This document shows, in pieces, positions 16,862 through 38,885 of a stretch of 61,105 bases of DNA. Made by a program: the position numbers and the translations under genes. The notes below the pieces were generated by a model, which was not told the origin of the DNA, ran no database searches, and saw nothing but the letters and a program-made list of their open reading frames with translations. Numbering within the stretch: position 1 is the stretch's first letter; each line of letters opens with the position of its first letter. Source of the DNA: a virus; IMG/VR virus record IMGVR_UViG_3300025771_000029, positions 1 to 61,105 of that record; one strand, given 5' to 3'.

Positions 16862-17549
16862 AAAATACAACATTTTTATCCTGTGATTCCCAGCAAATTG
16901 TGCATGCTGCACAACTGGGAACTCGGCCAATTTGTTCAGGGCAGACTAGTTTGGTACGACCAAAGTGCCAGTCTTCTGGTCTGCCCTTAACACATGATGT
17001 GCTAAACAAAGTAGCAGTATCGTCCGAAAAGCGAACACGGCATCTCTCCTTATATTTGTTGTTCATTTTGACAATGGCATACCCAATATCTGAAAAATTT
17101 CGATGGTGGGTATAGCCATAGATATGTAAGTTGGATATGTGGTTGAGCATGCATCGCCACCACGCAACGTATTCTTTGCAGTAGAAGTCGCCAAGCACAT
17201 GCAGCCGGATCACGAAACCTGCTTCATGCTGCATGGATAATGTTTCAAGCTGCTTGCGAAGTAGGGGTAGAAACTCAGGGTGTGTATGATCGTAACGAAT
17301 TGCAAACGGCATGTTGTTACCGTAACAGTTGTCCCATTGTTCACAGTAGTCGGGGCAACTGTTACGTTCTTCGAGCGACAATGAGTACAGCGGCATTCCT
17401 TTCCAGCTGCCTTTAGTAATACGTGCGCCTAGTTTTTTGTTATTCCGTCCCGATTTCAGCATATTGGCTGCGGGCGGTTTGACGCTTTTTAAGTATTTTG
17501 TCCTGAGTCGACGGTTTGGGTTGGGTGTGTTCGCGATTAGTAATGTCAT
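16851..17549 (-). CDS. GP88-like cysteine-rich phage protein
   Basis: 232 residues. The core GARITKGSWKGMPLYSLSLEE followed by CPDYCEQWDNCYG, then FVIRLHVLGDFYCKEYVAWW and a late Cys cluster (CPEQ..CAACTIC), matches the phage gp88 family (PF17338) as I recall it. Conserved Cys suggests Zn or Fe-S binding; activity is unknown. The N-terminal 37 codons overlap the upstream gene by 110 bases in another frame. A shorter start at Met30 (17462) would cut the overlap but lacks a ribosome-binding site. Confidence 0.75.
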   Translation of the reverse strand: MTLLIANTPNPNRRLRTKYLKSVKPPAANMLKSGRNNKKLGARITKGSWKGMPLYSLSLEERNSCPDYCEQWDNCYGNNMPFAIRYDHTHPEFLPLLRKQLETLSMQHEAGFVIRLHVLGDFYCKEYVAWWRCMLNHISNLHIYGYTHHRNFSDIGYAIVKMNNKYKERCRVRFSDDTATLFSTSCVKGRPEDWHFGRTKLVCPEQIGRVPSCAACTICWESQDKNVVFFEH

Positions 17550-18872: not shown

Positions 18873-18889
18873 CATTAGTGTAGCTAATT
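18873..18889 (-). promoter_or_regulatory. Degenerate palindromic operator at the nuclease gene
   Basis: CATTAGTGTAGCTAATT: each half keeps five of six consensus bases. It spans the stop codon of the primase gene and lies 25-41 bases before the preferred nuclease start. A TAATGC -10 is possible; no clear -35. Confidence 0.5.
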
Positions 18890-21376
18890 TTGCTGAGCAT
18901 GCAAGAGTGCAACATCTTGCTCTTTAAAGTATGTGTTAATCAGGCTTTGTATTTTTAAGTCGTCAGCTTGCCACTGAACTTCAACTCCACGGATCGCACT
19001 TTTTGTAGGATCAGAGCCTGTAGGGCGTTTACGTACAAAAACAATGTTGTTTCTTTGTAGGCGTTTTCTGAACTCGTGTAATGATAATTTTGCGTCAGCG
19101 TATACGTTAAACACATTTCTAAAGTGATCAATGGGTATAAGAGATGGCAGGTTCTGGTGCGCGTTAGATATCCACAGCTTTATGTGACGTTGCGCTGCAT
19201 CAATAGCGCCGCTGTTCATCACATCAGTTACATTGATGTCGAGTACTTCAGAAAAGTATTCTATGTTGCCGTCGCGTATAGCGTCGCAGTACTCTTCGAA
19301 AACGGACAGTGATGCAGTTTTCATCATTGTTTTTGCGTCGTTGTCGATAGGCATGCGGACAAGCGTCTCGTCATATTTGAATGTGGATAGCGCGCCTGCA
19401 AAGTGCAGTAGCTCGCGTGGTATCAGCTTGTCCATTGTTGCAACTAGCTCGGGATGCGCCTCAACTAGCTTTTTCTCTTGACGCGGTGCAATATTGTAGC
19501 GCCTGTCTCCCGGCTCAATACGTATTGCATCGACATGGTTTGTTAAGAAGATGAAACTTGTGTAGTTAGGCACTTCAACTTGATTGCTTCTCATCTTTCG
19601 GATTGTGACGCTGGGCTCAGTAATTTGGTTTTTGAGTTTGTTTGCAACTTTTTGCATAGCAGCGCTGCTTGCCATGTGAAACTCATCAACTACGCACAGC
19701 AAAGCTGTTTGTAAGTACGAGTTGAACTGCTCTTCAAGATTTTCAAGTGTTTTAACAGGCGCTTGGTCTTCGCTGAACAGCGGGCGCAGTACAGAGTACG
19801 CAAAGACACCTTTACCTGTGCCGGGTACGCCGCTGAGTACCCATGCTGTTTTGGCTTTCTTTTTGGTTTGATAAATGTAAGCAAGCCAGTTTACAAATCG
19901 CTCTATCTCTTGGTTACCGTCTCCTAGTATATGTTTAAGCAACGTGTAAATAGTCGGACATCGCTCTTGTATTTTGCATGCATAACCAATGCTCAATGGT
20001 TCTTCTGGTGCAATTGCGTTGAGCATATACATGGTTCGGCGGAACGTGTTGATGCGATACGGCAATGACGTTAGATCAACACTTGGTCCGTCGTGCGTTG
20101 GGTCAAAAGCCATGTTTGCGTCAGGCACGAAGTCTGGAGTAGGGCGTCCATGTGTCCGCATGAAGCCTTCAATAGAACTCATAGAGGTAGGTTTGAGTTC
20201 TGTAAATTCGTTTAGATTTGGATCAAAAATGCCGTTCCAATATACGTCAGTGTTAAAGTCGCGAAAGACTACCGGGTATTCTGGGCGGCCTTCTTTCTTC
20301 ATTTCTTCTTCGAACACATCAAAGATTGACTGATAGAAATCGGAGTCAGCTTTTTCAATCAAAAAGATTGGTTCGCCCTTAAAGTTATACATGTAGACGG
20401 GGTTATTAAGATTGAACCAGTAAGCGTTGCTATCGCCGCCGTTAATGTTGCAGCGTATGTATGGAGCAGTAGAAATATCTGCAATGCTGATAGACATCTT
20501 GTCTGGGTTAAGCAGCACTTCTTCTGATTGGTCACCAACTTGCATGACCTTTATCTTTTCTTCCTTCTTTGACAGTCCAGCTTTTTGACGCAGTTCGTTT
20601 TTAAACTTTTGCGATCTGTCATGCATGGCTTGTGCGCTAAGATGTGCCATCCTGCCCAGATCAAATGCGTCATGACTTTTTTTGACTAGAACAATGCGGT
20701 TGTCAGGAGAAGTAAACGGGTCTACTTCTGGTTTGTCGAAAGTAGGCGGGGCGATAAAAAGAATTTTGCTGTTATCTGCTACTGATGTGTCTAAGCCATA
20801 CTTTAATGACTGGCCGTTTGCAGACAGTCCAATCTGGTCTGCAAATACTTGCTGAGTATAGTTGACCTGCTGTAGCCACAGTTTGAGTGTCTTAGGTGGC
20901 ATTGGCACAGATAGCATCATAAATATGTGCATGCTGACCGTATTGTTTTTCAAGCCAATGCTAGATGAAGCTTGTGCTATGTAACTGATGTGTTGCAGCT
21001 CAGTAGGTAGCAGCGCAATCAGCTGTTCTGCCATTGCTTCTAGTTTATCTGCATCAATGTCTCGAAACGAAAGTGCGTCGAGTGTTGATAACGCAATGCC
21101 ATCGAAGTCGAGCGCTAAAAACTGCGTCAGTCCAGCGCGATCCGTTGCGCCTGCCCGGCTTTCGTCTTGTAGCTGCTTTCGCAAGTTGCCTTTAAGAAGA
21201 CAATTGCCTTGTGCTGCATGATGCACAATTGCCTGATGCATGTCTCCGATGCATGTTGCATTTACTTCATAGCTGTTAAAGTTTTTAACGTGTGGGTATG
21301 GTCGAAACTTGTTTTCTGAAGTGAAGTGTTTACTCAATCGGAGACCATTTGATGCCTCCAAAAACGTAAGCTTCAT
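18884..21376 (-). CDS. Primase-helicase (AEP-like primase fused to SF3/DUF5906-type helicase)
   Basis: 830 residues. The N-terminal half has a primase-polymerase look: FLALDFDGI (D90, D92) and SMHIFM (H150), consistent with an archaeo-eukaryotic-type primase. The C-terminal helicase has Walker A GVPGTGKG (516-523), Walker B CVVDEF (561-566) and the sensor FLTNH (610-614), as in D5/VapE/DUF5906 helicases. It would unwind and prime at the phage origin, with the family A polymerase nearby. GGAGAC precedes the start, and an operator-promoter lies directly upstream. Confidence 0.9.
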   Translation of the reverse strand: MKLTFLEASNGLRLSKHFTSENKFRPYPHVKNFNSYEVNATCIGDMHQAIVHHAAQGNCLLKGNLRKQLQDESRAGATDRAGLTQFLALDFDGIALSTLDALSFRDIDADKLEAMAEQLIALLPTELQHISYIAQASSSIGLKNNTVSMHIFMMLSVPMPPKTLKLWLQQVNYTQQVFADQIGLSANGQSLKYGLDTSVADNSKILFIAPPTFDKPEVDPFTSPDNRIVLVKKSHDAFDLGRMAHLSAQAMHDRSQKFKNELRQKAGLSKKEEKIKVMQVGDQSEEVLLNPDKMSISIADISTAPYIRCNINGGDSNAYWFNLNNPVYMYNFKGEPIFLIEKADSDFYQSIFDVFEEEMKKEGRPEYPVVFRDFNTDVYWNGIFDPNLNEFTELKPTSMSSIEGFMRTHGRPTPDFVPDANMAFDPTHDGPSVDLTSLPYRINTFRRTMYMLNAIAPEEPLSIGYACKIQERCPTIYTLLKHILGDGNQEIERFVNWLAYIYQTKKKAKTAWVLSGVPGTGKGVFAYSVLRPLFSEDQAPVKTLENLEEQFNSYLQTALLCVVDEFHMASSAAMQKVANKLKNQITEPSVTIRKMRSNQVEVPNYTSFIFLTNHVDAIRIEPGDRRYNIAPRQEKKLVEAHPELVATMDKLIPRELLHFAGALSTFKYDETLVRMPIDNDAKTMMKTASLSVFEEYCDAIRDGNIEYFSEVLDINVTDVMNSGAIDAAQRHIKLWISNAHQNLPSLIPIDHFRNVFNVYADAKLSLHEFRKRLQRNNIVFVRKRPTGSDPTKSAIRGVEVQWQADDLKIQSLINTYFKEQDVALLHAQQN

Positions 21377-21392: not shown

Positions 21393-21421
21393 ATATTACC
21401 TGGGCTAATACGATTAGCCAC
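21393..21421 (-). promoter_or_regulatory. Operator-promoter before the primase-helicase
   Basis: TATTACCTGGGCTAATA (21394-21410). On the minus strand TAATAT (21393-21398) is a good -10. The hexamer 17 bp upstream is GTGGCT, a weak -35. The start codon lies 17 bases beyond. It overlaps the 3' end of the csrA-like gene. Confidence 0.65.
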
Positions 21422-21590
21422 TTTTTTTCTGTTTGGGTTGGCGCATGATCCGTACAGTAGGGTCAGCTTCAAATGTTAAACGCACTTGGTTACGGTCAAT
21501 TTTCCCAACTGAAATGACAGCGATCTCTTCATCATTCTTTTGCAGAGTGATTTTATCGTTAGTTTTCTGTGTCAATACCAGTCGCGACAT
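21414..21590 (-). CDS. CsrA-like post-transcriptional regulator (58 residues)
   Basis: Reads MSRLVLTQKTNDKITL..EEIAVISVGKIDRNQVRLTF..DPTVRIMRQP. It aligns along its length with CsrA: the N-terminal LxLTxK strand, the central VxxxGKxxNQVRL strand and a C-terminal strand whose Arg50 falls exactly on the RNA-binding Arg44 of E. coli CsrA. CsrA dimers bind GGA motifs in mRNA leaders and block or stabilise translation. It sits between DNA polymerase (3 bases away) and primase-helicase, so it is made early and could retune host or phage translation. It is too short for common ORF cut-offs. Start ATG is six bases after a purine-poor leader, so the ribosome-binding site is weak. Confidence 0.82.
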   Translation of the reverse strand: MSRLVLTQKTNDKITLQKNDEEIAVISVGKIDRNQVRLTFEADPTVRIMRQPKQKKSG

Positions 21591-23922: not shown

Positions 23923-23951
23923 ATATTAGCTCCGCTAATGCTTTAGTGCAA
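23923..23951 (-). promoter_or_regulatory. Operator-promoter before the DNA polymerase operon
   Basis: TATTAGCTCCGCTAATG (23924-23940). Minus strand: TTGCAC (23946-23951), 17-bp spacer, TAATAT (23923-23928). It lies between the stop of the VWA-metallopeptidase gene and the 118-residue gene and overlaps the former slightly. Confidence 0.75.
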
Positions 23952-25058
23952 CAAATAAGTTGTAATGCCCCATGGAGCTTCTTCGCTTGCATCGGTTGAA
24001 ACCCAAATAACAGGGTAGGGGGGCTCGTCAGGAAACTCATCGGACGGACGTAAATCTGTAAAGAACACCATACCTTCTGGCTCTATGTAGTTGTTAGTTA
24101 CCCAGTCAAATACGGGTTGGAACAAAGTGCCGCCGCCACCGGCTACGTTTAGGATACTTTGTGTGAGTTCTTCATCTGCTGTGACATCGACAATGCGCGC
24201 TTCGTCAACTTGAGTGTCGCATTGTATAAATACCATACGCTCGGGGCGCATATCGTTGTGAATAGCTACAATTTCTGACAAGAACTTGTGAATCTGATTG
24301 TAAGTAGAACCAGATGTGTCCATGGCAACAACGTATGTGCCCGGTCCCTCGTCGTGCATTGATGGAAAGTACTCGTCTTCGCTGATGTAGGCACGGTGGG
24401 GGCGTCGCCATGTGAAGTCGTTTTTGGTTGTTGCTGCAAAGAAAGGCCAGAGGTGATCGCGGAAGTCGATAGTAGCTTTGCCTAGCTTGTCGACAAGGCG
24501 TTCGATTGATCCCGGTAACTTACCGGCTTGTCGTGCAATCTCAGCTGCTTGTTGTACTGCAAGATTCCAGTCAACTTCAAGTTGGCCTGCATCAACGTCA
24601 ATGGCACTGTTGTCTGCATCTGTTACATGGCCCCATTTGCATGGATCACCTGCATCTTCGGGTAGCAATTCGTAAATTGCTTCAGCTGACATGTCGCGAT
24701 ACTGCGGATCATGTAATCCACCGTCAGGTAATACAAAGCCGCAGTCGAGCAGAATGTGGTTGATAGCATGGTCGCACGCAATGTTCCAGCGAGTTGGATC
24801 ACGTCCGTTGCGGCGAGTCATGTGGTTGTTAGCGCAGTGCAGTACTTCGTGTGCAATAAGTCCCAGTAACTGCGATGCATCTTGCTTCTCCACAAATTTA
24901 GCGTTGAAGTCTAAATGTGTGCCATCAGTAGACGCAGTCTTGCAGTCGTCGCGTTCGCGAACTTTTAGTTTGAGACTTAGCACGCCAAAGAACGGCTCGT
25001 TGAGAATAAGCTGCGACCGTGAGCTGGTCACAGCTTTGTAGGTTGGTGAATGTTCCAT
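23943..25058 (-). CDS. VWA-like protein with N-terminal HExxH metallopeptidase-like domain (DUF2201-type)
   Basis: 371 residues. Residues 60-110 carry IAHEVLHCANNH (H70, E71, H74) and CDHAINHILLDCG, the putative metallopeptidase domain. Residues 240-371 are the VWA-like domain with a MIDAS-type D-x-S-x-S (D247, S249, S251), GGGGT (307-311) and FFTDLRPSD. The known pairing of this two-domain protein with a MoxR AAA+ ATPase is reproduced here (25733-26734). MoxR-VWA pairs act as chaperone-like remodelling machines, for example inserting metal cofactors. The phage substrate is unknown. Start by ATG after the 25060 gene stop, which is immediately adjacent. Confidence 0.85.
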   Translation of the reverse strand: MEHSPTYKAVTSSRSQLILNEPFFGVLSLKLKVRERDDCKTASTDGTHLDFNAKFVEKQDASQLLGLIAHEVLHCANNHMTRRNGRDPTRWNIACDHAINHILLDCGFVLPDGGLHDPQYRDMSAEAIYELLPEDAGDPCKWGHVTDADNSAIDVDAGQLEVDWNLAVQQAAEIARQAGKLPGSIERLVDKLGKATIDFRDHLWPFFAATTKNDFTWRRPHRAYISEDEYFPSMHDEGPGTYVVAMDTSGSTYNQIHKFLSEIVAIHNDMRPERMVFIQCDTQVDEARIVDVTADEELTQSILNVAGGGGTLFQPVFDWVTNNYIEPEGMVFFTDLRPSDEFPDEPPYPVIWVSTDASEEAPWGITTYLLH

Positions 25059-25732: not shown

Positions 25733-26734
25733 TTAGAATACGATGGATGCGTTGTCGGTAGTCCAGCTTTGAACAGCTGGTTCAGTGATTAGTGAACGGT
25801 CTTTGCCGATGATGTCTTTGACTGCGACAACCTGATACTCAGGCGGCAAACGACGCAGGTACGTAACGATTGGCTTGATGTCCTGCTGGTTTGCACGAGC
25901 AGACAGCGCGCCAGCTACGGCGTACAAGGTAGATGCAGACGTTGGAACACGCACACTGCCGGGGCTGCGAATAATCTGATCAATGTCAGGCAGCTCGTGG
26001 AAGATCTTCCGATGTGCAATGAACTCACCAGCTGCGCCGTCGCCGATGCTGGCTGCAATGCCGTGAAACTCGTCAGCAAGATGTGGCAGCTTACGGTTGA
26101 GTCGCATCCAGCTACGTGGCGTTGGAAACGCTTTTTCTTGCGTATCTGCGTCATGCAGCAAGTTGGGTCGGTAACGCAAGAACGAAGGAATCGATGGGTC
26201 GCAGCCGGTTTTGTATGCATACGCGCAGAAGTCGTCAACGTTTGGCTCGACAGTGTAGTGCTCGAAGCGATCTGCAACCGCTTGACCCATGTCGTTAGCA
26301 CCAGCGCGGTCGTATGTGCGGTTACCAGCAGCAATAATGATAGTGTTAGTCGGTAGCTCGTATGTACCGATGCGCTTCATCAACAGCAACTGAAGCAATG
26401 CGTTTTGCGTTGCTTTGGGTGCGTGTGTCAGATCATCTATGAAGAGAACAACAGTACCTGGGTAGTTACTATCGGGGTAATCTTCAGGCACGCCGTATCG
26501 GGTGCGGTATGAACCATCTACTTGTTCGACAACTTTGAGACCGCCGCGTACATCGACCGGGTCAAACAAATTGGCGCGGATTTCGTACAGCTTAGCGTTC
26601 TGTGACTTGGCGTATTGATACACCATTTCGGATTTGCCGATGCCCGGCGCACCCCAGATCATCATGGAAAGATCAGCCGTGGCACATGCTGCAATTTCTG
26701 CAGGCAGTTGGCTGGGTTTAATTGTCATGCTCAT
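25733..26734 (-). CDS. MoxR-type AAA+ ATPase
   Basis: 333 residues. Walker A GAPGIGKS (28-35), Walker B VVLFIDD (95-101), sensor-like AAGNRTYD near 150, and an arginine-finger region (DRFEHYTVEP). Sequence and length fit MoxR-family ATPases, hexameric remodellers that work with VWA proteins. AGGAG precedes the start by seven bases. The first 17 bases overlap the 62-residue gene upstream. It probably forms a functional module with the next two genes. Confidence 0.92.
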   Translation of the reverse strand: MSMTIKPSQLPAEIAACATADLSMMIWGAPGIGKSEMVYQYAKSQNAKLYEIRANLFDPVDVRGGLKVVEQVDGSYRTRYGVPEDYPDSNYPGTVVLFIDDLTHAPKATQNALLQLLLMKRIGTYELPTNTIIIAAGNRTYDRAGANDMGQAVADRFEHYTVEPNVDDFCAYAYKTGCDPSIPSFLRYRPNLLHDADTQEKAFPTPRSWMRLNRKLPHLADEFHGIAASIGDGAAGEFIAHRKIFHELPDIDQIIRSPGSVRVPTSASTLYAVAGALSARANQQDIKPIVTYLRRLPPEYQVVAVKDIIGKDRSLITEPAVQSWTTDNASIVF

Positions 26735-26906
26735 ACATATCTCCTCTTGAGAATTGCTCGGTTGTTAAGACTGTTAATATCTGCGTGAGCTCAGCAGGGT
26801 CTACTTGGATTGTCGTTGGGGGTTTGAAATCTGTAGCGGTGTGCTGCAAATGGTGATGCAGGTGCGTAAGACACCATTGAATTGCTTCTCTGCGGGTTTT
26901 GATCAT
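26718..26906 (-). CDS. Small hypothetical protein (62 residues)
   Basis: MIKTRREAIQWCLTHLHHHL.. with a His-rich helix. AGGA lies six bases before the start ATG, and the gene follows two bases after... the 54-residue zinc-ribbon gene upstream. It overlaps the MoxR start by 17 bases. No family recognised. Confidence 0.6.
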   Translation of the reverse strand: MIKTRREAIQWCLTHLHHHLQHTATDFKPPTTIQVDPAELTQILTVLTTEQFSRGDMYEHDN

Positions 26907-28524: not shown

Positions 28525-28688
28525 GACGCCACTCCAAAAAGTAATTTGATGTGGTAACGCATTACGTCTATGGAGTCGGACATAAGACACAAAGCGCTGC
28601 CTTGCTCGGGGTAGTCTGCGGCTAGCTCATCTAGCTTTTCGTAGGCTTCATCGAGGTGATTTAAGATGGCCTGCGCTTCACTGCTCAT
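28521..28688 (-). CDS. Small helical protein (55 residues)
   Basis: MSSEAQAILNHLDEAYEKLD.. reads as one or two amphipathic helices, ending IDVMRYHIKLLFGVAS. ATGA overlaps with both neighbours (28685-28688 and 28521-28524) make it a convincing member of the chain despite its size. Confidence 0.62.
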   Translation of the reverse strand: MSSEAQAILNHLDEAYEKLDELAADYPEQGSALCLMSDSIDVMRYHIKLLFGVAS

Positions 28689-28990
28689 GACGCCACTCCT
28701 TTCGGATCGTGAGTGCGCCAGCCGAGCTTGCGGTAGGGAAACTTGTCGGTCTTGATCATGCCGTATGATTCATGGCGCATGGTTCGTTTCATGAAGAACA
28801 ACAGCACGCTGACAATAGTCCCGGCGGTGAGTGCTGCCATCATGCCGCTGAACGTGCCTGCGAGCAGGAACATAAGCAGCACAGTGACGAACAAATCGAC
28901 ATAGATGTCGTAGTTAATGACCCTGCGGACACCGAACTTGAACAACAGAAACAACATGCCCGCAGCGGCTATGAGTCCCGCTAATAACAT
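28685..28990 (-). CDS. Small integral membrane protein (101 residues)
   Basis: Three hydrophobic segments: LLAGLIAAAGMLFLLFKFGV, YVDLFVTVLLMFLLAGTFSG and MAALTAGTIVSVLLFFM, followed by a basic cytosolic-type tail. AGGAG precedes the start. Inner-membrane location is likely; function unknown. A weak operator-like match (28970-28986) lies in its first codons. Confidence 0.68.
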   Translation of the reverse strand: MLLAGLIAAAGMLFLLFKFGVRRVINYDIYVDLFVTVLLMFLLAGTFSGMMAALTAGTIVSVLLFFMKRTMRHESYGMIKTDKFPYRKLGWRTHDPKGVAS

Positions 28991-31048: not shown

Positions 31049-31714
31049 TTAAGCGGCCAGTCGCGCGTCGAGCATCTTGGCGCGGTTAGCCATGAAGCCA
31101 GCGAGCTTGGTCGAGTTGTCCTTGGCTTTGAGCTCGTCGACTGTGTTCTGCATGACCTGCATGGCTTCGTCGTATGTAAACGCTGGCGTAGGCTTGAGCC
31201 ACTCACCAGTTGTCTCGTCGAGCACAGACGGGTTGAAGAACAGCAGGTCAATGTCGAATGCTTCGCCGTCGATGCCCAGCTCAGCCATGATCAGAGTCTG
31301 TGTCTGGAACAACAGCTCGTAGTCAGACTGGACAGCTTCCTTGATGCGCTCGGCAGGTACGTCGTGTACACCGACCTCGTCCATAGCGGACTGAGCAAGG
31401 TCAACGCCGTAGATGCCGCCGGACTCCGCTTCCTGTTGCGCCGCGCGTTGGAATGCAATGTCCAGCTTGCGAGCGTTCCACATGATGCGGTCCATGATGT
31501 TCTGGAAGAAACCAAGGACAGCAAATGTGGGGAACGGAGCTGACTCGCGGTCGCCGTTGCACTCGAAGGCGGCTTTGGCAAACGCTACGTCGATGGGCGT
31601 ATCGGCGTCGGTAAACCCAGCAATGTAGTTGGCAAGGTTGGTGTAGAAGGTGTTGCTCTTGCCTTGGCAGAGACGGGTCAACGCACCGGGGATGAATGAT
31701 TCTTTCATGTTCAT
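31049..31714 (-). CDS. Hypothetical early protein (221 residues)
   Basis: MNMKESFIPGALTRLCQGKS..FYTNLANYIAGFTDADTPIDV. Mostly helical with a hydrophobic central section (FPTFAVLGFFQNIMDRIMW). No family recognised. AAGGAG precedes the start, and a clear operator-promoter (31735-31763) lies 20 bases upstream. It is alone in its transcription unit before the strong terminator, so it is likely to be strongly and separately expressed on induction. Confidence 0.7.
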   Translation of the reverse strand: MNMKESFIPGALTRLCQGKSNTFYTNLANYIAGFTDADTPIDVAFAKAAFECNGDRESAPFPTFAVLGFFQNIMDRIMWNARKLDIAFQRAAQQEAESGGIYGVDLAQSAMDEVGVHDVPAERIKEAVQSDYELLFQTQTLIMAELGIDGEAFDIDLLFFNPSVLDETTGEWLKPTPAFTYDEAMQVMQNTVDELKAKDNSTKLAGFMANRAKMLDARLAA

Positions 31715-32137: not shown

Positions 32138-32500
32138 TTAAACGTTGACCACGCGTGTGATCAGGTTGTATTTGCTGGCCTGCTGAATCATGTGAGCAGT
32201 GCCGCGTGATTTGTTGTGAGAGAACGCAATAAGAGCGTCTGCGTACTCCGCCATTTTGACGTTGCGCTTATAACCAGCGCTCTTGCCGTAGGTGTTCCAC
32301 TGAGCAGGGAACAGAGTGAGTGCGTAGCCGTGATCTCTGGCGTACTTCTCGCCTAAACGATCTGCGCCTCTGGCATTACCAGAGACAATTTCAATTGGCT
32401 TCTTGGTTCGTGACAGGCACTCATCACAGGTGCGCTTGAGCAGATCGTAGTCGAGAAAGTCGCGAGATCCGGCGATGATGATGCGGTGAAAGTCGGACAT
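32138..32500 (-). CDS. SLOG-family protein (DUF2493/YspA-like)
   Basis: 120 residues from MSDFHRIIIAGSRDFLDYDL. The Rossmann-like GSRxF start, VSGNARGADRLGEKYARDHG and PAQWNTYGKSAGYKRN match DUF2493 of the SLOG superfamily, which binds nucleotides or related ligands and occurs in several anti-phage signalling systems. In a phage it might sense or remove a nucleotide signal; that is inference. GGAGGG before 32500 favours this ATG over 32515. Confidence 0.8.
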   Translation of the reverse strand: MSDFHRIIIAGSRDFLDYDLLKRTCDECLSRTKKPIEIVSGNARGADRLGEKYARDHGYALTLFPAQWNTYGKSAGYKRNVKMAEYADALIAFSHNKSRGTAHMIQQASKYNLITRVVNV

Positions 32501-32502
32501 GC

Positions 32503-32769
32503 TTAGTCCCTCCATTCCATGTAGGTGTGTGTTTCAGGGATGGGCTTCAGGTTGAGATGCTTGGCAAATGCCTCAGCTTCTTCTCGGGTAGCGAACTCTT
32601 TTGGCAACCATGAGTTCTCGTCCTCGTAATCGATGTAGTCCGTGTCAGGATCACCGATGTAGTGGCAGACAATGAAAGTGGTGCTAGTTGGGTCTTCGTG
32701 TGGACATGCGTACCACTTACGAAGCTTGCGAGTGTGGGCTTGGTAGCCGGGTTTGAAATCATGGTCCAT
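32503..32769 (-). CDS. Hypothetical protein (88 residues)
   Basis: From ATG 32769: MDHDFKPGYQAHTRKLRKWY.., then STTFIVCHYIGDPDTDYIDYEDE and a helix EEAEAFAKHLN. GAGG lies eight bases before this ATG; upstream Met codons at 32790 and 32814 are possible. It overlaps none of its neighbours. No family recognised. Confidence 0.58.
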   Translation of the reverse strand: MDHDFKPGYQAHTRKLRKWYACPHEDPTSTTFIVCHYIGDPDTDYIDYEDENSWLPKEFATREEAEAFAKHLNLKPIPETHTYMEWRD

Positions 32770-32889
32770 GAGAAATGCCTCGTGATTCATGGATCGATAT
32801 ACAGTGGTGTACATCGATACAGGTAAAAAATGGGTAAAAAGGGCAAAAATGGCTGTGGAGATCGACGAAGATCGCTACAAATAACTGCA
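32770..32889. other. AT-rich approach to the repeat region
   Basis: No gene is evident here unless the 88-residue gene starts earlier. It contains an ATCGAT pair (32793-32818) in palindromic context and a GGTAAAAA/GGGTAAAAA/GGGCAAAAA series (32822-32850). The AT-rich, repeat-flanking character fits part of an origin region. Confidence 0.4.
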
Positions 32890-33158
32890 TGTACCAGCAT
32901 GTACCAGCATGTACCAGCAATGTACCAGTAAAAAAGACAAAAAAGTTAATAAAAACAACTGTGTACCACTTGTACCAGCAAAAGTGAGTTTTACTCGTAG
33001 ATAAAACGTGTTTTTGAAAATCGGGTTATGTGTGAACCCAAAAAAGGTGGTACAAGTGGTACAAGTGGTACAAATGTGTGAAAAAGCAATTAAAACAACA
33101 GGTTACAGCTGTGCCAGAAGTGGTACAGAGCTGGTACAGAGCTGGTACAAGTGGTACA
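32890..33158. repeat. Two inverted clusters of TGTACCA iterons; candidate replication origin
   Basis: Six copies of TGTACCA in the left half (32890, 32900, 32910, 32921, 32962, 32971; the first three are perfect 10-bp tandems TGTACCAGCA). Seven copies of its reverse complement TGGTACA lie in the right half (33048, 33057, 33066 at 9-bp spacing; 33121, 33132, 33143 at 11-bp spacing; 33152). A degenerate pair GGTTACA/TGTGCCA lies at about 33101-33116. Between the clusters is an AT-rich 67-bp centre with a GGGTT-N7-AACCC hairpin. Copies phased to about one helical turn, in opposite orientation around an AT-rich centre and in a gene-free gap, are typical of protein-binding iterons at an origin or partition site. 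Confidence 0.85.
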
Positions 33159-33161
33159 GGC

Positions 33162-33323
33162 CTAGTCGGCGTCCTTGAACACGTCCAGCGTGAGGAACTG
33201 CCGCCGTGACAGGAGCACGTCTACAGGCACCATGTCGCATGCATCATGCTCCACGATCTCTGGTTCATGCACAGGGATGCATGGTTCATGGTCCAGTTGC
33301 AGGTCGAGTTGAGTCGGTATCAT
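33162..33323 (-). CDS. Small acidic protein next to the iterons (53 residues)
   Basis: MIPTQLDLQLDHEPCIPVHE.. ending SRRQFLTLDVFKDAD. AAGGAGAC lies seven bases before ATG. Stop lies 3 bases from the last iteron. Function unknown; its place beside the repeat array makes an iteron-related role worth testing. Confidence 0.6.
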   Translation of the reverse strand: MIPTQLDLQLDHEPCIPVHEPEIVEHDACDMVPVDVLLSRRQFLTLDVFKDAD

Positions 33324-33334
33324 GGCAAGTCTCC

Positions 33335-33541
33335 TTATCGGTAAGAGCGACGTTGTTCGGCGTCGAGTTCTGCGTTGAGCTCACGGAGCATCTCCATGGC
33401 GAGATCCCAGTTGCCGTGCTGTGCTTCATGCACCCAGCGACGACGCTTGATGGCACGTAGGACTGGAACGAAGATGAGGTTGGCGAGGAAACGTTCGATG
33501 GCAACGTAGATGTCAATTACGAAAGTGATGAGTTTGAACAT
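33335..33541 (-). CDS. Small membrane-associated basic protein (68 residues)
   Basis: MFKLITFVIDIYVAIERFLA.. LIFVPVLRAIKRRRW: hydrophobic first half with a basic stop-transfer, then an amphipathic helix (NWDLAMEMLRELNAELDAEQRR). AGGAG precedes ATG. First gene on the minus strand after the divergent intergenic region. Confidence 0.6.
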   Translation of the reverse strand: MFKLITFVIDIYVAIERFLANLIFVPVLRAIKRRRWVHEAQHGNWDLAMEMLRELNAELDAEQRRSYR

Positions 33542-33801
33542 GTTGTAACTCCTATCAATCGAGCGTCATTGCTCACAAAACAGACCGACCCACGACGACG
33601 AAGGAGGAGGGTTACTGCCAGACAAGGTTCGATGCATGCGTCATGAGACAAGGTTCATGTACCGCGATCCGGGGTTTGGGGTTGGTTGTGCACGGGCAGG
33701 GGAGACAATGAGTGAGTGATTTAGATAAATTTTTTCAAATTTTTTTCTAGCAAAAATTTTTTGCAGCCCTATCTTGTACTGCAAGCGCTGGGGGGCCGTT
33801 T
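33542..33801. promoter_or_regulatory. Divergent intergenic region between early and late strands
   Basis: 260 bases without a convincing gene. The right part is very AT-rich (33720-33765) with an imperfect inverted repeat AAATTTTTTCAAATTTTTTT/CAAAAATTTTTTG. No TATTAG palindrome is present, so promoters here would escape the dispersed operator. A repeated ACAAGGTTC word occurs at 33622 and 33648. Promoter positions cannot be fixed by eye. Confidence 0.4.
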
Positions 33802-34278
33802 GTGGATAAACAGTTGTGTACGCTCTGTAATGAAGAGCTACCAGTCAGTGAGTTCGAACAATACCCAAGCGGAAAATGGCGCATGCAATGTGAACCATGC
33901 CGCATAAAGCATAAGCAGCGTAAACGCCACATGGCTATGCAGCAGTCGCATGAGGCATATATAAGAAACCTGCACACGAAGCTTAAATCCACGCGTAAGA
34001 AAACCCATCTCTGGAACTTGGTTCCTGAAGACTTAATTGATATTTGGGCCGAACAGAAGGGTAAGTGCGCGGTATCGGGCGTTGCGTTGACACATCATCT
34101 GGATGGGTCAGGAGTCAAAGAGTTCAATGCGTCAATTGATCGCATCAACAATGATCAAGGTTATTCGCGAGAGAATGTTCGCTTAGTTGCCTACAGAATC
34201 AACATCATGCGACATACATTATCCACAGATATGTTTTGGTGGTGGGTCAAGACTATCCATGATCACTCTTGTGATTAA
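33802..34278 (+). CDS. HNH-type endonuclease with zinc ribbon
   Basis: 158 residues, GTG start. The N-terminal ribbon has C6/C9 and C30/C33. The HNH-like core is KGKCAVSGVALTHHLDG..NASIDRINNDQGYSRENVRLV. The C-terminus is aromatic (FWWWVKTIH). HNH proteins directly before terminase genes commonly assist terminase in genome cleavage or packaging; some are homing enzymes. It is the first gene of the plus-strand late region and ends just before the operator-promoter at 34269-34297. Confidence 0.8.
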   Translation: MDKQLCTLCNEELPVSEFEQYPSGKWRMQCEPCRIKHKQRKRHMAMQQSHEAYIRNLHTKLKSTRKKTHLWNLVPEDLIDIWAEQKGKCAVSGVALTHHLDGSGVKEFNASIDRINNDQGYSRENVRLVAYRINIMRHTLSTDMFWWWVKTIHDHSCD

Positions 34279-34297
34279 GTATTAGCGCAGGTAATAT
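34269..34297 (+). promoter_or_regulatory. Operator-promoter of the terminase operon
   Basis: TATTAGCGCAGGTAATA (34280-34296). TTGTGA (34269-34274), 17-bp spacer, TAATAT (34292-34297). Only seven bases separate the -10 box from ATG 34305, so transcription should begin at or next to the start codon. Confidence 0.78.
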
Positions 34298-34304
34298 TAG
34301 AGGC

Positions 34305-34586
34305 ATGTCCGATTACCAGACAGAAGCATACGCAATAGAGGGTCTGGCTGAAGCTGTCATCGGAATTGGACTTCGCGATTCGGGACGACAAGTTTTGGTC
34401 TACGACGCGATAAGTGTGCAAGACATATTGGAAAGCTCGGGTTCGGGACTTTCGTTTGGCGCGTTCTTAGAGGCTTTGAATATAGAGGGTCTCGGTGAGC
34501 GCGCACCTATGTTTATTTGGTTGGATGACGACATCAAATATGAGCTTAAAGCAGTTGGCGCAGGATCAGGCTATCGACTCCATTAG
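34305..34586 (+). CDS. Hypothetical protein upstream of terminase (93 residues)
   Basis: MSDYQTEAYAIEGLAEAVIG.. QVLVYDAISVQDILE..FIWLDDDIKYELK. No family recognised. The promoter geometry implies a leaderless or near-leaderless message. An AGAGG six bases upstream would then lie at the very 5' edge. It overlaps the small terminase gene by 47 bases. Confidence 0.65.
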   Translation: MSDYQTEAYAIEGLAEAVIGIGLRDSGRQVLVYDAISVQDILESSGSGLSFGAFLEALNIEGLGERAPMFIWLDDDIKYELKAVGAGSGYRLH

Positions 34587-36722: not shown

Positions 36723-38885
36723 ATGGCTACCTATAAAGCTGTGGAGAAGATGACACCCGCCGAACAGCAGGAGGTCTCGTCTAAACAGTGGGATCGTTAC
36801 GTTCGCGCCCGTGATAACGGCCACCTTGAATACGTTGAGATGGCTAAGAAGTGCGATGCCTTCTATCGCGGGGACCAGTGGGATGAGTCGGATGTAGCTG
36901 CACTAGATGCAGAGGGTCGGCCCGCTTTGACTATTAATACGGTGCTGCCGACTGTAAACACGGTGCTTGGCGAACAGTCCACGCGGCGTGCAGATGTGCA
37001 GTTCAAACCGCGCCGTGGCGGCGACGAAGCGGTCGCGCACACGCTGACAAAGTTGTACATGCAGATCGCTGACAACAACAAGCTCGACTGGGTTGAGCAG
37101 CAGGTCTTCAGCGACGGTTTGATCCTAGACGGGCGCGGCTACTTCGACGTTCGTATTGATTTCAGCGACCACGTCGAAGGTGAGATCCGCATCACCGCCA
37201 AAGATCCGCTCGACATTCTTATTGATCCCGACGCCAAAGAGTCTGACCCCAAGACGTGGAACGAAGTCTTCGAAACGAAGTGGATGACGCTGGATGAGAT
37301 CGAAGAACTCTACGGTAAGAAGAAAGCGGAAGAGCTGCGTTTCATCGCCGAGAACGGTAACGGCTACGGGCGGGATTCAATTGAGTACGAGGAGAATCGC
37401 TATGGCGATCTCGATAGTACTGACGATTATCTAGGGGCTGGTATTCCCGGCGACGATGAATATCGCAACGTGCGGGCGCTTCGGGTCATCGAAAGACAGC
37501 ACAAACGAATGACCCGTGTGATGTGCTTCGTGGACCCTGAAACAGGCGACACGAGAGATGTACCAGAACCATGGTCCGAGGCAAAGGCCAAGAAGTTTGC
37601 CAAGCAGTACAGCTTAAACCTAATCCGAAAAGTTAAACGAAAAGTCCGATGGACAGTGACATGCGACAAAATAGTACTTCATGACGACTGGTCTCCTTAT
37701 AACGATTTTACCATTGTGCCTTACTTTGCTTATTTTAGGCGCGGTAGACCTTTCGGTATGGTGCGTAACCTCCTTTCGCCGCAGGAACAGCTAAACAAAA
37801 TAGCCAGCCAAGAGCTGCATATCGTTAATACCACAGCTAATAGTGGCTGGATGGTAGAAAGCGGATCGCTGGTGGGTATGTCAGCCGATGACTTGGAAGA
37901 GCACGGCGCTGAGACCGGTCTGGTACTTGAGTACAACCGTGGCTCTACACCGCCCGTGAAGATACAGCCAAACCAGATCCCTACTGGTCTGGATCGTATC
38001 AGCCAGAAAGCGGCGCTAAATATTAAAGCTATTAGTGGTATCAACGATTCGATGTTGGGCACCGACAGTGCCGAGGTATCGGGCGTTGCTATTCAGGCCA
38101 AGCAGAACCGTGGCGCGATAATGATCCAAGTGCCGCTGGACAACCTGCGTAAGACTCGACAGTACCTCGCCGAGAAGATTTTAGACTTGGTGCAGACGTT
38201 CTACACAGAGCGGCGCGTCATCATGATCACCAACGAAGAAGACCCGCTTAAACCACGCGAGCCGATGGTCATCAACGAGATGACACCCGAAGGGCAGATC
38301 ATTAATGACCTGACTATCGGTGAGTACGACGTAGTTATCTCCACCGCGCCCGCGCGCGACTCGTTTGATGAGGTGCAGTTTGCCGAGGCGCTTAACTTGC
38401 GTCAGGTTGGGGTCGCCATCCCAGACGACGCCATTATTGAATACTCGCATCTGGCGAGAAAGCAGGAGCTTGCGAAGCGCATCCGTGTACTCACCGGTCA
38501 GGAACCACCGACACCGGAGCAGGCGGAAGTTATGGCGATGCAGCAGCAGATGGCTATGCAGCAGTTGCAGCTTGAGATTGCCAAGCTCGAAGCGGAAGTC
38601 CGTAAGTTGCAGTCCGACGCGGCGGTCAACATCGCCAAGGTACAGGATATGACTGACGTACAGCCGCAGCTGCGCCTCACCGAGCTGCAAAGTCAGATTG
38701 ACACCAAGATGGAAGAACTCCAGTTGCGTCGTGATCTGGCGGATCTTACGAATCAGACGCGTCAGTCCCAGGCGGAGACTAATGCTGCAACACGAATCGC
38801 TGCAACGGCGATGCAGACCGCTGCTAAGAAGCAGTCTGCAAGGCCGGGGCCGGTAAACATCCCTAACTCGCCTAACAATCAATAG
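36723..38885 (+). CDS. Portal protein (P22-like large portal)
   Basis: 720 residues from ATG 36723; GTG at 36714 is possible. Recognised by AFYRGDQW..GRPALTINTVLPTVNTVLGEQSTRR, DPLDILIDPDAKESD, PEQQLN-type SPQEQLNKIASQELH and the long C-terminal helix rich in Gln and Met (PEQAEVMAMQQQMAMQQLQL), which may form a barrel extending into the capsid. Forms the dodecameric DNA gate at one capsid vertex. Follows the terminase stop by one base. Confidence 0.93.
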   Translation: MATYKAVEKMTPAEQQEVSSKQWDRYVRARDNGHLEYVEMAKKCDAFYRGDQWDESDVAALDAEGRPALTINTVLPTVNTVLGEQSTRRADVQFKPRRGGDEAVAHTLTKLYMQIADNNKLDWVEQQVFSDGLILDGRGYFDVRIDFSDHVEGEIRITAKDPLDILIDPDAKESDPKTWNEVFETKWMTLDEIEELYGKKKAEELRFIAENGNGYGRDSIEYEENRYGDLDSTDDYLGAGIPGDDEYRNVRALRVIERQHKRMTRVMCFVDPETGDTRDVPEPWSEAKAKKFAKQYSLNLIRKVKRKVRWTVTCDKIVLHDDWSPYNDFTIVPYFAYFRRGRPFGMVRNLLSPQEQLNKIASQELHIVNTTANSGWMVESGSLVGMSADDLEEHGAETGLVLEYNRGSTPPVKIQPNQIPTGLDRISQKAALNIKAISGINDSMLGTDSAEVSGVAIQAKQNRGAIMIQVPLDNLRKTRQYLAEKILDLVQTFYTERRVIMITNEEDPLKPREPMVINEMTPEGQIINDLTIGEYDVVISTAPARDSFDEVQFAEALNLRQVGVAIPDDAIIEYSHLARKQELAKRIRVLTGQEPPTPEQAEVMAMQQQMAMQQLQLEIAKLEAEVRKLQSDAAVNIAKVQDMTDVQPQLRLTELQSQIDTKMEELQLRRDLADLTNQTRQSQAETNAATRIAATAMQTAAKKQSARPGPVNIPNSPNNQ

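Follow-up and report, generated by a model that had tools for sequence, protein, structure and literature searches.

A mirrored iteron array that co-varies with a phage primase-helicase, a probable replication origin in a family of tailed phages

The uncultivated virus record IMGVR_UViG_3300025771_000029, analyzed here along its full 61,105 bp (hereafter the window) and lacking end repeats, carries between two of its genes an array of short repeats, or iterons (32890-33158), that switch orientation around an AT-rich center. Comparison of this region and its gene products with those of related phages makes it very probable that the array is the replication origin of this tailed phage, bound by the phage's own 830-aa primase-polymerase/SF3 helicase (18884-21376, minus strand), with the iterons and the wing of a modeled C-terminal winged helix in this protein changing together. 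A first-pass annotation made from the sequence alone had proposed a symmetric origin with initiator loading on either side, and the conserved layout of the array, its helical spacing, and its co-variation with the protein make this the best-supported reading.

Organization of the array

Thirteen exact heptamers are present in the array, six copies of TGTACCA (32890-32977) followed by seven of TGGTACA (33048-33158), exactly in the numbers and positions first annotated. The left outer cluster (32890-32927, plus strand) contains four forward copies starting at 32890, 32900, 32910, and 32921, and is separated by a spacer of 21% GC (32928-32961) from an inner pair (32962-32977, plus strand) whose copies start at 32962 and 32971, 9 bp apart, a pair that is kept in relatives. 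The 70-bp center (32978-33047) has 36% GC, and just 4% of the 70-bp windows are equally low. On its right side lie an inner triplet of TGGTACA (33048-33072, minus-strand orientation; starts at 33048, 33057, and 33066, also 9 bp apart), a second spacer, and an outer cluster of four copies (33121-33158, minus-strand orientation; starts at 33121, 33132, 33143, and 33152). The right spacer harbors an IHF-like site, AAACAACAGGTTA (33093-33105, plus strand), one mismatch away from the consensus WATCAANNNNTTR, and a lone degenerate forward iteron, TGTGCCA (33110-33116, plus strand), a 14th copy that matches the word used by the closest sister phages. In the left spacer of the window only matches to the IHF consensus with two mismatches were found.

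The steps between neighboring copies are 10, 10, 11, and 9 bp on the left and 9, 9, then 11, 11, and 9 bp on the right, supporting the helical phasing noted at the outset. The array concentrates 13 of the 23 copies of the heptamer in the window, compared to a total of 6.5 after dinucleotide shuffling of the whole 61 kb; no other heptamer exceeds seven copies in any 269-bp stretch of the window, and only one iteron cluster exists within it.

Conservation of the layout in related phages

Relatives were collected through a TerL search and a primase search, with 80 loci each. All relatives with contig coverage 2-3 kb upstream of TerL were found to have an array of equal layout there, consisting of an outer forward cluster, a spacer, an inner forward pair 9 bp apart, the AT-rich center, two or three inner reverse copies with the same 9-bp step, a spacer that often contains a lone forward copy, and an outer reverse cluster. 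In a strict test, the mirror score of exact heptamers in 38 regions upstream of TerL was compared with the maximum of 380 shuffles; 35 regions exceeded this maximum, and the other three, in which the words are mixed, contain at least 11 sites once hexamers or one mismatch are allowed. Among 40 arrays the median distance between the inner sites is 86 bp and the mean GC content of the center is 31%. Adjacent sites in the same orientation are mostly 9, 11-12, 19-22, 30-32, or 41-42 bp apart in the relatives, which is close to whole helical turns. DnaA boxes were detected in only 3 of the 40 arrays, a neutral result for an SF3 helicase. An array was also looked for in the distantly related Aeromonas phage phiA008 and was not recognized.

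The heptamer itself differs among the phages, with TGGTACA in the window and two relatives, and TGGCACA, TGACACA, TGTCACA, CTGCACA, GTGCACA, CGACACA, CGTCACA, TGCTACA, and others elsewhere; within one genome it is largely uniform, and a few arrays are mixed. The nearest sisters of the window, 84-90% alike around the array, have TGGCACA at the same sites. Absence from close relatives had been named beforehand as grounds for abandoning the origin; the array is present in them, with its motif changed. A search for TGTAGCA arrays yielded four more array contigs, none of which carries the primase gene. No match was obtained in a nucleotide search of the array region against phages, a genome scan aimed at prophage relatives that could point to a host found none, and no description of this array family was found in the literature searched, a scope that lacks most subscription papers.

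Two further kinds of repeats were observed in these searches. At least 119 stretches of viral contigs, some of them in array-bearing relatives, contain TGTACCA in triplicate, in many cases at a period of 9 bp. Repeated units with CAGGCGG/CCGCCTG in both orientations lie near the contig end upstream of TerL in L200, L204, and G011 (38485-38600).

The IHF consensus WATCAANNNNTTR has 32 exact matches in the 40 arrays, compared to 0.7 expected from dinucleotide shuffles. Most of them lie in the right spacer, between the inner and outer reverse clusters, and in several relatives the left spacer contains a consensus site in the mirror (minus) orientation. In attP, short arm repeats likewise occur together with IHF sites, and an integrase gene is present in the window, so we considered whether the array could be a set of recombination arm sites (an attP-like intasome) or a regulatory operator array. 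There is, however, no sigma-70-like promoter in 32400-34400, the integrase gene is 20 kb from the array, with no homologue detected in several of the relatives that carry an array, and no conserved core sequence is apparent by eye in the centers, leaving this explanation with the slimmest chance of those weighed here.

The candidate initiator

In the 830-aa protein, the archaeo-eukaryotic primase (AEP) motifs D90xD92, S148xH150, and D196 and the SF3 helicase motifs are invariant in 77 of 77 sequences, and the helicase domain matches the NrS-1 primase in the PDB (E 2.6e-38). A structure model of the whole protein was too poor for use (pLDDT 49.5), whereas its last 145 residues (686-830; 18884-19321, minus strand) were modeled well on their own (pLDDT 85.8) as a winged helix, with helices at 749-759 and 766-775, strands at around 780-783 and 795-800, and the wing between these strands. 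A PDB fold search with this C-terminal domain gave no match at E <= 0.001; its weak matches were the C-terminal region of NrS-1 (probability 0.91) and others, including subunits of the origin recognition complex (ORC). The wing (residues 784-795; 18992-19027, minus strand) is hypervariable: among all 12-residue windows of the initiator, 785-796 varies most, at 55% against a mean of 8.5% in 165 recently diverged pairs. Two more patches, residues 37-48 and 800-811, also change fast.

The first-pass annotation had implied that a further DNA-binding protein recognizes the repeat. Judging from the motif co-variation described below and from the structural model, the phage's own primase-helicase is the best candidate for this role, and its C-terminal winged helix the proposed iteron reader. 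Two other conserved proteins were set aside as binders, one (31049-31714) because it looks acidic by eye and the other (28685-28990) because it looks membrane-like by eye.

Co-variation of the wing and the iterons

Co-variation of the 601 variable columns of the protein with each of the four variable bases of the motif (x1-x4) was measured as normalized mutual information in the 24 genomes for which both the array and the initiator are known. In a ranking of all columns, to be read bearing in mind that the wing had already been noticed, the top column of the 601 was 796 for x1, 782 for x3, and 793 for x4, with residue 796 in fourth place for x2. The value of the region that holds these columns was reached by none of 300 label shuffles for each of x1, x3, and x4, and by 3 of 300 for x2, and the maximum observed over the whole protein was reached in 1 (x1), 11 (x2), and 5 (x4) of 300 shuffles.

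Individual residues follow the motif. Q782 replaces R782 in all three TGCTACA lineages but is absent from the remaining genomes whose array is known, and TGCTACA requires three separate changes on the protein tree. P793 is found in every TGGCACA genome, and also in some others; in each of three sister contrasts (window/G001, G009/G036, and G065/G042) P793 changes to A along with the motif. The nine motif types of the 24 initiators require around 15 changes on a tree built from the rest of the protein, compared to a shuffled mean of 16.8. The motif thus shows hardly any clustering on the tree, and the coupling is not explained by kinship. It is with the modeled winged helix at the C-terminus of the initiator that the motif co-varies, and residues of the wing are statistically coupled to its bases.

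The same analysis bears on the most serious rival, a packaging site (pac or cos) where the small terminase would bind the iterons, IHF would bend them as in lambda cosB, and packaging would start. The terminase genes lie downstream of the array, terS at a distance of 1.3 kb and terL at 2 kb, and the pairing of short repeats with an IHF site is also that of lambda cosB. Furthermore, the metagenome contigs of many relatives break around the array, in a broad zone 1-3 kb upstream of TerL. On the other hand, these ends are scattered without a single point and were rejected as a genome terminus, and several contigs run through the array. Such breaks are expected where a region varies between strains. 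On the same genomes, the association maxima of TerS are below those of the primase for all four bases (x1 0.59 versus 0.79, x3 0.44 versus 0.58, and x4 0.33 versus 0.57), and TerS has no variability hotspot comparable to the wing. In addition, the similar array of phage KPP25, described below, lies inside the early operon, with about 4 kb separating it from the gene that neighbors TerL. Given these data, we regard a packaging site as unlikely.

The maxima of another neighbor, an endonuclease VII-like protein (33802-34278, plus strand), are also below those of the primase for x1, x3, and x4. For x2, its residue 65 reaches an association of 0.75 compared to 0.60, above any primase column, either by chance or as a sign of a second protein that sees the motif.

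A partition site had initially been ranked level with an origin. In this reading, a dedicated DNA-binding protein would bind the array as a centromere-like site for the partition or maintenance of an extrachromosomal prophage. Iteron arrays with bending sites are known from centromeres, and the window encodes an integrase and a helix-turn-helix (HTH) repressor-like protein, which makes a prophage state possible. However, no ParA/ParB-like gene was recognized among the proteins scanned, and the motif co-varies with a replicative primase-helicase. The partition reading has lost its parity with an origin and appears very unlikely.

Observations that weigh against an origin bound by the primase-helicase

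Several results count against our preferred reading. The GC skew, suggested earlier as a check, does not change sign at the array and gives no support for an origin; the AT skew does change sign there, along with gene direction. The initiator gene is 11.5 kb from the array, whereas the origins of SaPIs (Staphylococcus aureus pathogenicity islands) and pRN1 adjoin theirs. The IHF-like site of the window has one mismatch where relatives have exact sites. For x3, the best value was equaled in 20 of 300 whole-protein shuffles. Finally, the wing did not stand out in a plain partial Mantel test (r 0.04), probably owing to saturation of its distances.

Genomic setting

The array fully occupies the gap between the minus-strand open reading frames 32503-32814 and 33162-33323. 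It is therefore free of genes, as first annotated, and is positioned just inside the leftward gene block. The annotated proximity to a divergent gene boundary holds insofar as the first rightward gene (33802) starts around 0.65 kb to the right, although the array itself does not sit on the boundary. With the initiator gene on the minus strand, the array is on its upstream side.

The window encodes tail and terminase proteins, the integrase and HTH repressor-like protein, an SNF2-like helicase, a PD-(D/E)XK exonuclease, and a PolA-type polymerase, besides the primase-helicase. Between the primase and polymerase genes, a 58-aa protein matching CsrA (PF02599, E 4.7e-8; 21414-21590, minus strand) is retained in several relatives. 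A conserved gene pair on the same strand encodes a DUF2201 (metallopeptidase/VWA-like) protein and a MoxR-like AAA ATPase (23943-25058 and 25733-26734).

Proposed mechanism and significance

We class the array as a probable iteron replication origin that a self-loading initiator-helicase would open, and place it in the broad P4/SaPI kind. In the mechanism that we propose, the C-terminal winged helix of the initiator would bind the heptamers, and the mirrored inner pairs would seat two oligomers in opposite senses, one to the left and one to the right of the AT-rich center. IHF or a similar bending protein in the spacers could fold the phased outer clusters back onto the inner pairs. The center would then melt, with one helicase ring loaded per strand, the two opposed, and bidirectional synthesis would start from primers that the initiator itself makes. 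The wing and all the iterons of a genome would change jointly across the family, which would give each phage type a private origin specificity.

What drives such switching is a matter for more tentative proposals. The joint changes might be driven by an arms race, be it with competing phages, with satellites, or with nucleases that cut origins, while concerted evolution would keep the dozen or so iterons, over approximately 300 bp, uniform, so that co-infecting relatives could not use, or be attacked through, each other's origins; this is a possibility that we find somewhat doubtful.

If our reading is correct, a large and mostly uncultured phage family gains an assigned origin and a probable initiator, and a full origin is seen switching specificity many times, nearly as many as with random labels. 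A long-standing question becomes directly testable, namely how a DNA-binding protein that must recognize around a dozen sites can change jointly with all of them without loss of function, with the wing-heptamer pairs as a natural record of a protein and its target switching in step, and with residues 782, 793, and 796 as candidate specificity positions for a recognition code. The family also provides a context for possible conflicts between phages over replication origins.

Comparison with known systems

The ori and crr sites of P4 resemble the window array in their short xxxxACA-type repeats (GGTGAACA), which occur in both orientations 9-11 bp apart and form mirrored pairs in crr. The P4 alpha protein unites a primase and a helicase with an origin-binding winged helix at its C-terminus (PMC4234260, citing Yeo 2002), and its primase is of the Toprim type, in contrast to the AEP motifs of the window initiator. 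The C-terminus of alpha matches Pox_D5 (PF03288) and that of the window protein does not; a profile comparison of both domains detected no homology, and they could not be aligned by sequence. P4 also has two separate iteron sites, compared to a single 14-site array in the window.

The origins of SaPIs and other phage-inducible chromosomal islands (PICIs) have an AT-rich region flanked by two sets of iterons (PMC6092414), and their Rep helicase recognizes the iterons through its C-terminal domain (PMC7581432). They are located directly downstream of rep in small satellite islands, whereas the window array belongs to a 61-kb phage, lies far from its initiator gene, and has additional phased outer clusters and IHF-like spacers.

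The SF3 helicase domain of the NrS-1 primase-polymerase is homologous to that of the window initiator, as indicated by the PDB match. Directly after its gene, within an annotated small open reading frame, the NrS-1 genome (AB746912) contains 12 AAAGTGTAACC-type repeats in both orientations (17061-17371), which are likely its origin array. The literature names two 8-nt recognition sites as a possible origin (PMC7102993); in the passages of the NrS-1 paper that were consulted, we found no mention of the AAAGTGTAACC array. This array differs from that of the window in its position beside the primase gene, its motif, and its layout. Replication proteins of pRN1-type replicons have the domain order AEP primase, SF3 helicase, and winged helix (PMC4234260), the same as modeled for the window initiator, but the pRN1 origin is a long stem-loop without iterons.

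In PLEs (PICI-like elements), the DNA-binding domain of RepA and the origin iterons co-vary and swap, and the origin-targeting phage nuclease Odn is thought to drive the swapping (PMC8263062). There, whole modules with a RepA_N binder are exchanged, whereas in the window family the wing and the iterons change; by analogy, PLE and Odn are a precedent for the driver of switching and no evidence for it in this family. Among cultured phages, the Pseudomonas phage KPP25 (Kochitakasuvirus; NC_024123) has mirrored TGTTACGA / TCGT[AG]ACA words with an AT-rich center in a non-coding part of the early operon (26394-26830). With respect to these known systems, the symmetric, IHF-containing layout and the rapid, concerted switching of the motif are the new elements of the array described here.
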